Positions 25,141 to 31,675 of a stretch of DNA of 64,000 bases are shown here, piece by piece (within the stretch, counting starts at the first letter, position 1; the number at the start of each line of letters is the position of its first letter). Location: assembly GCA_028277945.1 (NCBI GenBank), contig JANQFH010000021.1, forward strand, positions 1 to 64,000, read 5' to 3'. Position numbers and translations under genes: made by a program. Source of the stretch: Oligoflexia bacterium. GTDB lineage: Bacteria > Bdellovibrionota_G > JANQFH01. The notes beneath the pieces are model-generated. The model saw nothing but the letters and a program-made list of their open reading frames with translations, was not told where the DNA came from and ran no database searches.

Positions 25141-26670
25141 ATGATTATCGTCCTTGATTACGGCAGCCAGTACACCCAGCTCATTGCCAGACGCATTCGT
25201 GAACTCCAGGTCTACAGTGTCATCCTGCCCTATAACGCACCGATCAAACCGCAGGACTATCCGCAACTGCGCGGCATTATTCTTTCTGGAGGTCCTGCCA
25301 GCGTTTATGGTGATCAAGGCTTAGCCATGAATGCCGACTGTCTGGAATTGGAGGTGCCGATTCTCGGCATCTGTTATGGTGCGCAGCTGTTGGCTTCGAC
25401 GTTTGCAGGACAAGTTGAACAGGCCCATGAGCGCGAGTTTGGTCGCGCTGTTTGCACAATTGTCGACGATACAGATCTTTTCCAAGACATTACACAAAAG
25501 CAGTTAACCGTGTGGATGAGCCATGGCGATAAGATTACCAAGCTACCTGAAGGCTTTACAGCGATTGGCACGAGTGAAAACTCGCCCTATGCAGCGATCC
25601 GGCACGCAGAGCGTCGCCTCTTTGGTGTGCAGTTTCATCCGGAAGTGCATCACACCACTGCGGGTACCAAGATACTGACGAACTTTGTGCATCGTATCTG
25701 TGGTTGCGCACCAAACTGGACATCTGCCTCCTTTATTGAAAACACGATTACCGATATACAGCGCCAAGTAGGTAGCGAGAAGGTGCTCTGTGCGGTCAGC
25801 GGCGGTGTAGATTCTACGGTCATGGCGGTGTTGCTAAACCGAGCTGTTGGTAAGCAGGCCACGGCTATCTTTGTCGACAATGGTCTGTTACGTCAGGGTG
25901 AAGCCGAAGAAGTACGCCACTGGCTTGGTGAAGAGCTCGGTGTCAACCTTGAGTTTGTCGATGCGCGTGAGCGTTTTTGGCAGGCTCTGGCAGGTGTCGT
26001 CAATCCAGAGGAGAAACGCAAGATCATTGGTCATACCTTTATCGATGTTTTTGCAGCCTCGGCAGAGAGACTCGGTGGGGCCACCTTTCTCGCCCAGGGT
26101 ACGCTCTATCCCGATTTGATCGAATCGGTCAGCCACGTTGGACCGAGTGCGACGATCAAGAGCCATCACAATGTCGGCGGTCTTCCTGAACAATTGCCCT
26201 TTAAGCTGATAGAGCCACTTAAAGAGTTGTTCAAAGACGAAGTGCGTGCGGTTGGCAAAGGCTTGGGTATCTCCTCGCGATGGTTGCAGCGTCATCCCTT
26301 TCCAGGACCTGGATTGGCCGTAAGGGTACTAGGAGAGGTTACGCCTCAACGTCTCGAACTATTACAACAGGCGGATGCTATCTTCATTGATGAGCTGCAT
26401 AAGGCTGATCTCTACCACAAGGTGTGGCAGGCTCTTGCGGTGCTGCTGCCGGTCAAGTCTGTGGGAGTCATGGGCGATAGCCGCACCTATGAGAACGTCG
26501 TTGCCCTACGAGCGGTGACGAGTACGGATGGCATGACTGCAGACTGGGCTGAGTTGCCAGGAGAGTTCTTGGCGTCGGTGTCAACGCGTATTATAAATGA
26601 AGTTGCCGGCGTCAACCGTGTGGTTTACGATATCTCCTCCAAACCACCCAGTACCATTGAATGGGAGTAG
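25141..26670 (+). CDS. guaA: GMP synthase (glutamine-hydrolysing)
   Basis: A 509-residue enzyme that makes GMP from XMP, ATP and glutamine. The class I glutamine amidotransferase domain comes first: [10 protein letters not shown], nucleophile Cys in [10 protein letters not shown] near residue 79, His and Glu in [11 protein letters not shown]. The ATP pyrophosphatase domain follows with the P-loop [10 protein letters not shown] near 220, then the GMP synthase C-terminal dimerisation domain ([17 protein letters not shown] and KPPSTIEWE at the end). Start is ATG 25141, 11 bases after guaB; a TTG at 25126 would overlap guaB. dnaE begins 7 bases after its stop. Confidence 0.97.
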
Positions 26671-26677
26671 TGGGCAC

Positions 26678-29600
26678 GTGAGCTTTGTGCATCTACATCT
26701 CCACTCTCAGTATAGCCTACTTGATGGTTTCGTAACGTTTGCGCCCCTGCTTCAACGCGCGCGTGAGTTTGACATGCCTGCTGTTGCGCTTACCGATCAT
26801 GGCAACATGTTTGGGGCTTTGGAGTTTTATCAGCAGGCAAAGAAGATGGAGATCAAGCCAATTCTTGGCTGTGAAGTCTACGTGGCTCCCAATAGTCGCT
26901 TTGAGAAAAAACGTGAAGCAGGTAGGGCTAACCACCTCATTCTTCTCGCAAAAGATCACCAAGGTTATGCCAACCTATGTCGGCTTGTCAGTGCTGGTTA
27001 TTTTGAGGGTTTTTACTACAGACCGCGAGTGGATCGAGAACTCCTCAAACAGCATGCCAACGGCTTGATCTGCCTTAGTGCCTGTTTGGCAGGGGAAATC
27101 CCTTCTCTGCTGTTAGCCGGGCTAGACGAGGAAGCCAAAAAACGTGCCCGCACCTATCAGGAGATTTTCGGGGAGGAAAACTTTTACATCGAGCTGCAAG
27201 ATCACGGTCTTGAGCAGCAGGCACGCATCAACCCCAAGCTTGTCGATTTGGCCCGTGAGCTCTCGGCGCCCATGGTGGCAACGAACGATTGCCATTATTT
27301 GCAACGTCGTGATGCACGTAACCATGATGTGCTTTTGTGTATCCAAGGGGGCAAGACGGTAGACGACCCAAACCGTCTGCGTTTTCATAATGATGAGTTT
27401 TATTTCAAGTCAGCAGAAGAGATGGCAGAGAGGTTTTCCACCCACGCCGAAGCCATTAGCAATACGCTCGAGATTAGCAACCGCATCAACCTAGAGTTTT
27501 CTTTTGGTAAGCTGCTCTTTCCCAGCTTCAAACTGCCTGGGGCAGTCACGCCCGATGAGCGTCTCGAGACGCTGGCGAAGGAGGGTCTGGAAAAACGTCT
27601 GCAACAGATTGTGGCAAAGCAGCAAAATGACCCTAGTACAAACAAAATAGAGATGGCTCAGTACCACGAGCGGCTGGAGTATGAGCTTGAGACGATAAAA
27701 AAGATGGAATTTAGCGGTTACTTTTTGATTGTGGCTGACTTTATTGCCTTTGCCAAACGTGAGGGCATTCCGGTCGGTCCTGGTCGTGGTTCTGCTGCTG
27801 GCAGTCTGGTGGCCTATGCGCTTGAGGTTACCGACATTGACCCGCTCGCTTACAATTTACTCTTTGAACGGTTTCTTAATCCTGAGCGCATCAGTATGCC
27901 GGATATTGACATTGACTTCTGCGTTCGTGGCCGTGATCGGGTTATCCAGTATGTAGCGCAGAAGTATGGTGAGGGTAGCGATGAGGTGGCCCAGGCTAAG
28001 GTGGCGCAAATCATCACCTTTGGCAAAATGAAGGCGCGCGCGGTTATCCGCGATGTGGGCCGGGTGTTGAACATGCCTTATGGTGAGGTTGATCGAATTG
28101 CTAAGATGGTGCCCTTTGCCATCAATATTACTCTTGCGGAAGCGTTCGCGCAGGAACCAAGGTTTCAGCAGTTGCGCCAGCAAAACCGGCAGATAGACGA
28201 ACTCTTAGACATTGCTGAGGCTTTAGAGGGTTTAGTACGTCATGCCTCAACCCATGCCGCCGGTGTCGTGGTGTCAGACGATCGACCGTTGGTTGACCAT
28301 ATGCCACTCTTTCGCGGTAGTGAGGGTGAGGTTTCAACCCAGTATGACATGAAGATGGTCGAGGCATTAGGTTTGATCAAGTTTGACTTCCTTGGTCTTA
28401 AGACGCTTACCGTAATCCATGAGACCGTCGAGCTGATAAAAAAGAACTACGACAAAGAGATAATCGTCGAGAATCTACCGCTCGGCGATGCCAAGGTCTA
28501 TGAGCTTCTCAGCCGTGGTGACACCACGGGTATTTTTCAGCTTGAGAGTTCGGGTATGCGTGACCTGATAACCCGTCTAAAGCCAGGGGGCTTTGGCGAC
28601 ATTATCGCCCTAGTGGCCCTCTACCGTCCAGGCCCCTTAGGAAGCGGTATGGTCGACGACTTTATCAAGCGAAAGCATGGTGTCATTCCCATTGTCTATG
28701 AACTACCTGAGTTAAAGGAGATCTTGCGAGAGACCTATGGCGTTATTCTCTACCAGGAGCAGGTCATGCAGATTGCCGTCAAACTCGCCAACTACACCAT
28801 GGCCGATGCCGACATCCTCCGTAAGGCCATGGGCAAGAAGATCCCTGCGGTTATGTTGCAGCAAAAAGAGAAGTTCATGCGTGGTGCTTTGCATAACAAC
28901 GTGCCACCAGCAAAAGCAGAACGGCTATTTGATCTGATGGTGAAGTTTGGCGGTTATGGTTTTAATAAATCTCACAGTACTGCCTATGCGCTTATTGCTT
29001 ATCAGACAGCTTACCTAAAAGCTCACTACCCTGTGGAGTTTATGTCGGTGTTGCTCTCGGAGGATATCAACAATACTGACAAAATTATCAGTTACATTAC
29101 GAACTGCCATGACGAGGGGATAGAAGTTTTACCGCCGAATGTCAACCAGAGCCAGCGCAACTTTGAACCCGTGGCCGATAAAATTCGTTTTGGACTTGCG
29201 GCAGTTAAGGGTATTGGCGATGCCGCAATCGAGGCGATTGTTGAAGCGCGAAATGAGCAGGGTCCATTTAAAGATGTGGTCGACTTTGCTGAAAGAGTAG
29301 ACTTAAATCGAGTCAACCGTAGAGTCTTTGAAGCGCTGATAAAGTGTGGCGGCTTTGATGACTTTGGCATGGAGCGCTCGCGTATGTTTGCCAGCCTTGA
29401 TCAGATTGTGGAATTGGGCCAAGCGTTTCAACGACGTCAGTCTACCGGCCAGGTAGGTCTGTTTGACTCGCAGGCCGAAGGTGCTGCGCCGACGTTTTTT
29501 CCCAAAGTGGAGGAGTGGGAGGAGAAGGTAAAGCTGAACTTTGAAAAGGAGTCTGTGGGTTTTTATCTGACCGGACATCCTCTAACCAAATACCGACCGC

Positions 29601-30163
29601 TTATGACTCGGCTTGGCTGTTTGGACATTAGTGAAGTTCACAGTAGAGAGGAGAGACAGCAGATACGTGTTGGTGCGGTTGTTACTACCAGTAAGGAGAT
29701 CACAACGCGTAAGGGGGACCGCATGGCTTTTGTAACATTAGAGGATCTCAAAGGCACGGTGGAAGGTGTGGTCTTTGCGGATGTTTATCGCGATAGTGTC
29801 GATCTCATCAAAGGCGATGAACCGCTTTGTGTGCATGGAACTGTCGACTGTGGTGAAGAAAAGAACAAGTTGATTGTGCAACGTATTGTGCCTTTGGCAG
29901 AGGCAGAAGAGTCCTATGCAGAAAGAGTGGACGTAAAGTGTGAGAGCGCACGTCTGCCACAAGAGCGGCTTGCAGCAGTGAAGAAGGCAATGCAAAAATT
30001 TCCGGGCGCGTGTGCGACGTTTCTACATCTCCATTTGGAAGACGACCGGGTTGTCACCTTAGCGCTACCGCGGGAGAACTGGGTCAAGCCTGGCGAGGAA
30101 TTTGTTCAAGCACTCACCGAAGCCGCCGGCGACCCCCAAGCCATCCGCATCGAAGTCAGCTAA
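26678..30163 (+). CDS. dnaE: DNA polymerase III alpha subunit
   Basis: An 1161-residue replicative polymerase of the DnaE1 type. It opens with the PHP domain (FVHLHLHSQYSLLDG, LTDHGNMFG). The polymerase active-site aspartates are in MPDIDIDFC near 407 and in LIKFDFLGLKTL near 568. Further segments are GPGRGSAAGSLVAYAL, FGGYGFNKSHSTAYALIAYQ, a helix-hairpin-helix region and an OB fold near 996 (VGAVVTTSKEITTRKGDRMA). Start is taken as GTG 26678 since it yields the canonical N-terminus; upstream in-frame ATGs lie inside guaA. It is co-oriented with guaBA only 7 bases downstream, so it is probably also transcribed with them. Confidence 0.96.
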   Translation: MSFVHLHLHSQYSLLDGFVTFAPLLQRAREFDMPAVALTDHGNMFGALEFYQQAKKMEIKPILGCEVYVAPNSRFEKKREAGRANHLILLAKDHQGYANLCRLVSAGYFEGFYYRPRVDRELLKQHANGLICLSACLAGEIPSLLLAGLDEEAKKRARTYQEIFGEENFYIELQDHGLEQQARINPKLVDLARELSAPMVATNDCHYLQRRDARNHDVLLCIQGGKTVDDPNRLRFHNDEFYFKSAEEMAERFSTHAEAISNTLEISNRINLEFSFGKLLFPSFKLPGAVTPDERLETLAKEGLEKRLQQIVAKQQNDPSTNKIEMAQYHERLEYELETIKKMEFSGYFLIVADFIAFAKREGIPVGPGRGSAAGSLVAYALEVTDIDPLAYNLLFERFLNPERISMPDIDIDFCVRGRDRVIQYVAQKYGEGSDEVAQAKVAQIITFGKMKARAVIRDVGRVLNMPYGEVDRIAKMVPFAINITLAEAFAQEPRFQQLRQQNRQIDELLDIAEALEGLVRHASTHAAGVVVSDDRPLVDHMPLFRGSEGEVSTQYDMKMVEALGLIKFDFLGLKTLTVIHETVELIKKNYDKEIIVENLPLGDAKVYELLSRGDTTGIFQLESSGMRDLITRLKPGGFGDIIALVALYRPGPLGSGMVDDFIKRKHGVIPIVYELPELKEILRETYGVILYQEQVMQIAVKLANYTMADADILRKAMGKKIPAVMLQQKEKFMRGALHNNVPPAKAERLFDLMVKFGGYGFNKSHSTAYALIAYQTAYLKAHYPVEFMSVLLSEDINNTDKIISYITNCHDEGIEVLPPNVNQSQRNFEPVADKIRFGLAAVKGIGDAAIEAIVEARNEQGPFKDVVDFAERVDLNRVNRRVFEALIKCGGFDDFGMERSRMFASLDQIVELGQAFQRRQSTGQVGLFDSQAEGAAPTFFPKVEEWEEKVKLNFEKESVGFYLTGHPLTKYRPLMTRLGCLDISEVHSREERQQIRVGAVVTTSKEITTRKGDRMAFVTLEDLKGTVEGVVFADVYRDSVDLIKGDEPLCVHGTVDCGEEKNKLIVQRIVPLAEAEESYAERVDVKCESARLPQERLAAVKKAMQKFPGACATFLHLHLEDDRVVTLALPRENWVKPGEEFVQALTEAAGDPQAIRIEVS

Positions 30164-30206
30164 CATCATACCCCACTACTTTTTGTAAACTCTTCCAAAG
30201 TGTTGT

Positions 30207-30350
30207 GGTGCTGTATCAGGTTCTCTTCCGAGGACGCAGTCCCTCGGCGTTTCGCCGCCTCGGGCTGCTTGGCTCTCGGTGTCGGCGTCTATTACAAGCA
30301 TGGATGCCGACACCTCCGAGACACCTCGTCAGAGAACCTGATACAGCACC
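30207..30350. repeat. large inverted repeat 1 (144 bp, 20-bp perfect arms)
   Basis: GGTGCTGTATCAGGTTCTCT (30207-30226) is exactly complementary to 30331-30350. Pairing continues imperfectly inside (CGAGG with CCTCG). The centre holds a second stem, GGTGTCGGC (30278-30286) with GCCGACACC (30306-30314), and a small CGGCG-TTT-CGCCG hairpin (30245-30257). The whole could fold as a branched RNA or extrude as a cruciform. There is no T-run after it, so it is not a textbook terminator. Confidence 0.85.
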
Positions 30351-30384
30351 TCTACAGCGTTGCTAGACTTAGCAAATATTGGAA

Positions 30385-30587
30385 TTAGAGAGGCAGCTGG
30401 GTTGTTTTGCAAGCGACTGTGGAGCCAGCCGATTTGTTCGGGAGCGCAGGCGAGGGGAAACCGATACGCGCTGCGCCTACGCTAGTAGCGCAGCGCGGGA
30501 ACGGAGGGGCCCCTGCCGGAGCGACCGTTAACAAATCGAGCTGGTGGAGCGCCGGAGCGTAGCAAAACAACCCAATTGCCTCTCTAA
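30385..30587. repeat. large inverted repeat 2 (203 bp, 26-base arms)
   Basis: Arms 30385-30410 (TTAGAGAGGCA, GC, TGGGTTGTTTTGC) and 30562-30587 pair at 24 of 26 positions. Inside are a second stem, CCAGC plus CGATTTGTT (30425-30438) with AACAAATCG plus GCTGG (30530-30544), and an apical stem CGCGCTGCGC (30467-30476) with GCGCAGCGCG (30488-30497). The stems are separated by purine-rich internal loops on both sides. The nested layout suggests selection on folded RNA or DNA. It lies between the convergent ends of dnaE and mreB. Confidence 0.85.
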
Positions 30588-30640
30588 ATCTAATGACTGC
30601 CAAAGTGTTTGTGGGACAGGAAGCTAGTAGAGTTATTGCA

Positions 30641-31675
30641 TTAGGCTGCGGTGGTGATGCGTTTGAGCAGGGGCAGGTTTTCCAAAAGCTTGCCTGCACC
30701 CATGACAACGCAGTTGAGTGGTTCTTCAGCGACAAACACCGGTAGTCCCGCCTCTTCAGTGAGTAGCTTATCAAGACCTTTGAGGAGGGCGCCGCCGCCT
30801 GTGAGGACAATACCGCGCTCTGAGATATCTGAGGCGAGTTCCGGTGGAGTCTTCTCCAGTGTGTTCTTAACGGCATCGACAATGGCACGGGTGGTTTCCT
30901 TGAGCGCTTCCCGCACCTCTTTGCCGGTCATCTCCACGGTCATGGGTATGCCGCGCACCAGATCTCTGCCGCGCACTTCCACGCTCTTTTCATGGCTGCC
31001 AGCTTTGACATTGCCCGCGTCAATCTTGATCTGTTCGGCCGTGGTTTCGCCAATGAGCAGGTTGTGTTTCTTTTTAACGTAGTTGATGATCGCCTCATCC
31101 ATGTGGTCGCCAGCAACACGGGCTGAGATCGAACAGACAATGCCCATCAGCGAAATTACCGCAACCTCGGTTGTTCCTCCGCCAATGTCTACCACCATGT
31201 TGCCAGAGGGCTCGGTGATCGGCATCTGTGCACCAATGGCTGCTGCAATGGGCTCTTCTATGAGGGCGACATTGCGCGCACCTGCAGAGAGCGCTGACTC
31301 AATGACCGCACGTTTTTCTACCGCGGTAATGCCTGAAGGGACGGAGATGACTATGCGGGGACGCACCCCCCAACGGCGGTTGTGCGCCTTGGCAATAAAG
31401 TACTTCAACATCTCTTCGGTAATATCGAAGTCGGCAATGACCCCCTCTTTCATGGGTCGGATGGCAATAATATTAGCCGGTGTTCTACCGAGCATCTCCT
31501 TGGCGGCCTTACCAACCGCACGCACCAATTTGTTGCCAGAGGTGGTCTTTTCAATGGCTACCACGGCAGGCTCGCTGATGATGATACCTTGACCTCTTTG
31601 GTAGACGAGGGTGTTGGCAGTGCCCAGGTCAATGGCAAGATCGGTTGAGAAGAGTCCAGCAATAGATTTCAGCAT
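30641..31675 (-). CDS. mreB: rod shape-determining protein MreB
   Basis: A 344-residue bacterial actin that forms membrane-bound filaments guiding lateral wall synthesis. Seen are the N-terminal membrane-binding start [20 protein letters not shown] (phosphate 1 loop), [15 protein letters not shown]-type phosphate 2 loop ([17 protein letters not shown]) and the adenosine motif [14 protein letters not shown]. Length and start agree with the family. The AAAGGAGG sequence abuts the ATG without a spacer, which is unusually close. mreC and mreD are not next to it; after mreB comes the palindrome region and dnaE, so mreB stands alone here. Confidence 0.96.

Follow-up and report, generated by a model that had tools for sequence, protein, structure and literature searches.

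A dispersed palindromic repeat with conserved internal loops and changeable stems in the dnaE–mreB spacer of an Oligoflexia bacterium

The window analysed here is a stretch of 64,000 nucleotides from an Oligoflexia bacterium (assembly GCA_028277945.1, contig JANQFH010000021.1, forward strand), in which the spacer between the genes dnaE and mreB carries two large palindromes. The one nearer mreB was the subject of the original prediction; the other (P1) lies directly upstream of 30385–30587 and was absent from it. The features of this region are as follows.

26597–30163, + strand: dnaE, left neighbour, ending 37 bp ahead of the second palindrome
30170–30196, + strand: probable left end of the composite element, a degenerate inverted-repeat end (tentative, from comparison of copies)
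30201–30356, + strand: second palindrome (P1), a dispersed repeat that accompanies the first at three other loci (C61, C59 and C9)
30360–30375, + strand: small hairpin separating the two palindromes, TTGCTAGACTTAGCAA, as read from the sequence
30385–30587, + strand: three-tier palindrome as reported, the + strand being the purine-loop (GA) strand
30386–30410, + strand: outer stem, 5' arm, pairing with 30562–30586 in a predicted helix of 11+13 pairs
30418–30552, + strand: conserved heart, matched by covariance model R1 at 149 bits, a score that is not independent since R1 was built from four sequences including the window copy
30424–30441, + strand: middle stem, 5' arm, pairing with 30525–30545, with compensatory changes in the copies of a second genome (G002)
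30442–30466, + strand: conserved internal-loop strand, 5' side, GA-GC-GCA-GGCG-AGGGG-AAA-CCG-ATA
30467–30497, + strand: inner exchangeable hairpin, of type 1 in the window copy and C61, whereas four others have type 2 instead
30498–30524, + strand: conserved internal-loop strand, 3' side, GGAA-CGG-AGGGG-CCCCT-GCC-GGA-GC-GA
30525–30545, + strand: middle stem, 3' arm, with a bulged A retained in aligned copies
30562–30586, + strand: outer stem, 3' arm, partner of 30386–30410
30600–30620, + strand: probable right end of the composite element, TGTTTGTGGGACAG (tentative, from comparison of copies)
30641–31675, − strand: mreB, right neighbour, convergent with dnaE

A 203-bp palindrome of three stems had been claimed, and both the predicted helices and the folding statistics bear this out. 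RNA folding of 30370–30600 gives −134.3 kcal/mol on the + strand and −118.9 kcal/mol on the − strand (z = −11.0 and −10.5, with 0 of 200 shuffles as good), and DNA folding of the palindrome gives −72.4 (+) and −64.9 (−), with z of −10.4 and −9.6. The outer 24 and inner 10 pairs stand as counted, the latter predicted to join 30467–30476 to 30488–30497; the middle stem, put at 14 pairs, proves slightly longer at 15, its predicted helix comprising 6+9 pairs plus CGG/CCG between 30424–30441 and 30525–30545. The purine-rich internal loops quoted at the outset are located between these helices, and an imperfect extension of the arms, with mismatches, reaches 30369–30603. The palindrome had been called unlike any common terminator or REP element, and no Rfam family matched it; the only hits were MIR918 and MIR3454 at 25–33 bits, against cut-offs of 268 and 142. 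The outer ends of the composite element, similar but degenerate across several copies, are probably inverted-repeat ends, judging from their sequences, and no target-site duplication is visible on reading the compared copies.

A DNA search of the window's own genome (G000) located the element in nine places on seven contigs, six near-full and three partial. Covariance model R1 has seven matches in G000 and five or six, at five loci, in G002, which represents another family of the same small phylum, from which five genomes, each of a separate family, were examined. It has no match elsewhere among 385 genomes under strict filters, an absence that is weak because few candidates were scored per genome. 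Genome-wide counts of palindromes are based on a 464-kb sample together with the model and DNA searches. Both palindromes occur together at four loci (the window, C61, C59 and C9) in constant order and relative orientation, the inner hairpins are of two exchangeable types, and truncated and chimeric copies are present. Among four type-1 sequences from G000 and G002, 96.9% of cells are paired, compared with 31–51% when partners are slid by one to three columns, and 11 of 41 pairs are changed on both sides; the internal-loop strands hardly vary between aligned copies. Loops were predicted to be conserved and stems changeable, and a covariance search of the lineage was expected to recover the same loops with compensatory stem changes. 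Both expectations hold in G002, because its copies keep the loops and change their stems on both sides, with the slid controls far lower. Within the stems, G.T pairs outnumber A.C pairs on the purine strand by 11 to 4, which points weakly to selection on that strand; selection that acts on a folded single strand fits, whether that strand is DNA or RNA.

Two further hairpin types, T4 and T5, exist in many copies in the same genome. They have common internal loops but very different stems, 20 of 31 pairs being changed on both sides, and they share mosaic elements with the window heart, lying inverted relative to each other within one element. At C10:429500, T4 precedes the core's 3' outer arm, C47 combines T4, a cut T5 and the core, and L150 is a T4/T5 chimera with its junction at the loop; other hairpin modules also have ends in common with the window element. 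Since a T4/T5 covariance model does not match the window heart, their link to the window family, as read from the sequences, is limited to common ends, joint mosaics and a similar style of loop (tandem G.A, GC-GCA-G / C-GA-GC), short of proven homology. Several other hairpins were also seen. A near-perfect palindromic repeat of approximately 58 bp (AAGGTACGGCCTTACTTT...) occurs at least four times within the genome sample (L078:1776, L079:7301, L085:226 and L080:17926). A further hairpin type, GGGTCCTGYCGC ... GCGYCACCC (L066:6260-6440 and L031; L178:15926 and L174:5351 in G134), is seemingly common to the window's genome and G134. G002 also has other large intergenic hairpins whose internal loops are rich in purines, at L106:3601, beside a tRNA-like sequence, and at L105:12281.

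A sister hairpin type, met within these mosaics, is found in another phylum too and forms a sister family there. Model R2 matched G134, and model R3 matched G134, G385, G387, G389 and G390, which represent two families of that phylum. Across 49 sequences, 93.4% of R3 cells are paired and 25 of 29 pairs are changed on both sides, although the alignment was fitted to the model and these figures therefore lean towards the structure. Copies within G387 have a heart identity of 0.93 and an arm identity of 0.34, the arms being private to each locus. R3 gives no significant match on the window, and the window and R3 families do not cross-match by covariance model, hence we do not assign the window heart to R3; common ends, mosaics and loop style are all that links the two. 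Of the three G390 copies, L256 and L260 have the inner hairpin exchanged for a longer insert carrying a CTGGATCCCTGCCTTCGCAGGGATGACA repeat, and L252 has a different inner hairpin again.

The sister family also occupies genes. Stop-free, in-frame copies lie within a ComEC-like gene (between competence and lactamase-type domains), between domains of SelB and between two TrpE/PabB domains, while in PurF the hairpin forms an N-terminal extension; these in-frame copies are at L268, L257, L255 and L264 (G387, G134 and G389), near position 1500–1600. Sense and antisense orientations relative to the host gene are both common. The signal-peptide starts of secreted-protein genes are also overlapped, mostly in antisense (L258, L262, L266, L251, L259 and L250, with L048 in G002), and L251 and L259 represent an orthologous locus in two species with compensating stem changes. 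Counterparts without the hairpin occur in G386 for the L266 locus and in G134 (L179:16832) for the start of purF, so that each of these two hairpins, at least, was either inserted in one lineage or lost from the other; this empty-site evidence concerns the sister family and not the window copy. At most of the signal-peptide loci the native-looking arm is the 5' arm of the purine strand, L250 being the exception, a reading that depends on signal peptides at a handful of loci and is a lead only.

In its own genome, by contrast with the sister family, the window family is intergenic and sits at gene 3' ends. By simple ORF calls rather than a gene finder, convergent genes flank 12 of 23 elements and divergent genes one, against 18 and 45 of 127 spacers of at least 60 bp (Fisher p = 1.6e-4 for convergent enrichment), which supports the preference for convergent genes that had been guessed. 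This bias may come from the choice of target or from selection against damage to promoters.

How should such a structure be explained? Conserved loops within changeable stems had been taken as the mark of a functional RNA, which as stated is not supported, the copies being dispersed, truncated and recombined repeats. A regulatory or non-coding RNA made from the purine strand and multiplied by duplication would account for the loops and their compensating stems, the strong fold and the compensatory changes at the orthologous L251/L259 locus, and the excess of G.T pairs is suggestive only. Yet Rfam offers no match, copies are cut short or chimeric, and the mutually inverted T4 and T5 of a single element cannot share the purine strand of one transcript; furthermore, a cis-acting RNA of one polarity is unfit because sister-family copies run through coding frames in both orientations. 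We therefore regard a functional RNA as unlikely. Chance quasi-palindromes held complementary by template switching, their loops recognised by nothing, seem extremely improbable. The expected product does exist at L054 in G002 (C19:18838-18972), where two 3' halves meet head to head in a near-perfect palindrome, as though template switching had corrected it, but this copy shows what loop loss looks like, and nearly all others keep asymmetric loops, between families and phyla, that the process would erase.

The position of the window family recalls a bidirectional transcription terminator, or a stabiliser of mRNA 3' ends, between convergent genes. Enrichment at gene 3' ends, rarity in divergent spacers and great hairpin stability all suit such a role, for which conserved internal loops would be unnecessary; sister-family copies within genes and at gene starts also speak against it, and we think it very unlikely, although it may arise secondarily from a mobile element. 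It is also quite unlikely that these are giant REP/REPIN-like repeats that a Y1 (RAYT-type) transposase mobilises. Inverted hairpin pairs and GGAG motifs do recall REP doublets, and RAYT-like Y1 genes occur in G000 at C61:13089 and C9:48799, the second 2 kb from the C9 element. However, the hairpins are far larger than REPs and conserve their centre rather than a foot, and each of the five genomes from the phylum has Y1 genes, carriers and hairpin-free genomes equally, without hairpins flanking them; the proposed Y1 link is hence not supported.

The best explanation, to which we assign a probability of roughly 0.6, makes the palindrome a copy of a mobile palindromic element that is dispersed, non-autonomous and codes for no protein. 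Copies of the repeat stand at unrelated sites, are mosaic, retain their loops within compensating stems and prefer gene 3' ends. The same purine-rich loops within freely changing arms point to small mobile elements recognised by their fold. The recognised form would be the purine-rich strand folded as a single strand, with single-stranded DNA or a cruciform likelier than RNA, and the enzyme would act in trans on a site made up of the tandem G.A loops and the conserved heart, the arms needing only to pair. Copies would then survive at sites where the damage is slight: between convergent genes and downstream of genes or, in the sister family, in frame within linkers and N-terminal extensions. 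No mobilising enzyme was found, in that no transposase with matching ends was seen among the Y1 genes examined, and phage and plasmid collections gave no match. A loose loop pattern had given 68 hits in viral contigs, of which the covariance model retained none; they look like chance occurrences in coding sequence.

A mobile element of this kind might insert by folding back, the heart joining its target by one end and the folded 3' end priming a copy of the adjacent target. We put this forward as possible but rather unlikely. The product would be a heart within an inverted target duplication, with arms private to each copy, which would explain arms of 34% identity around hearts of 93%, and also the native-looking 5' arm at most sister-family signal-peptide loci. 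If private arms do arise at insertion, they would represent inverted target duplication by a route that we do not know from elsewhere.

Dispersed bacterial palindromes are usually defined by a repeated sequence. Here, it is the set of internal loops that is conserved over families and phyla, and the arms are free provided that they pair. Elements defined in this way would evade ordinary repeat searches, and covariance models would be needed to detect them. The in-frame copies show hairpins turned into parts of proteins (PurF, SelB and ComEC). Literature searches by sequence strings and by topic returned no description of these hairpins, and the element family is an undescribed group of hairpin-forming repeats.

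Among known systems, the attC sites of integrons are more conserved in structure than in sequence, and one folded DNA strand is recognised. The present elements are alike in conserving structure beyond sequence and in the folded-strand recognition proposed for them, but their conserved centre and variable arms are the opposite of attC, and inspection by eye showed no attC core boxes (RYYYAAC/GTTRRRY). YPAL/RU-2, ERIC, Correia/NEMIS and similar MITEs are small dispersed palindromic repeats, and YPAL inserts beside dyad symmetry (PMC2229807); here, no target duplication is seen and the conserved part is the loops and not the ends. REP, BIME and REPIN sequences with RAYT transposases are intergenic palindromes that form mosaics and inverted pairs, frequently downstream of coding regions (PMC3733652, PMC2817692), a description that also suits the palindromes reported here. 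The REP unit, however, is 20–40 bp with a GTAG or CGTC foot (PMC3733652), and the present hairpins are of 85–230 bp with several conserved internal loops, differing from REPs in both size and foot, and none was found flanking a RAYT gene. Rickettsia palindromic elements are stem-loop repeats of approximately 100–150 bp, in several families per genome, often in frame and with an unknown mobiliser (PMC10969869, PMC2229807). The window family is likewise a dispersed palindromic repeat of about 100–150 bp with a stable stem-loop, intergenic itself but with sister-family copies in frame in protein genes; it differs in its conserved centre, in the arms unique to each locus in the sister family and in its host lineages. 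Compared by description, and without a claim of membership, the window element appears to behave like a Rickettsia palindromic element.
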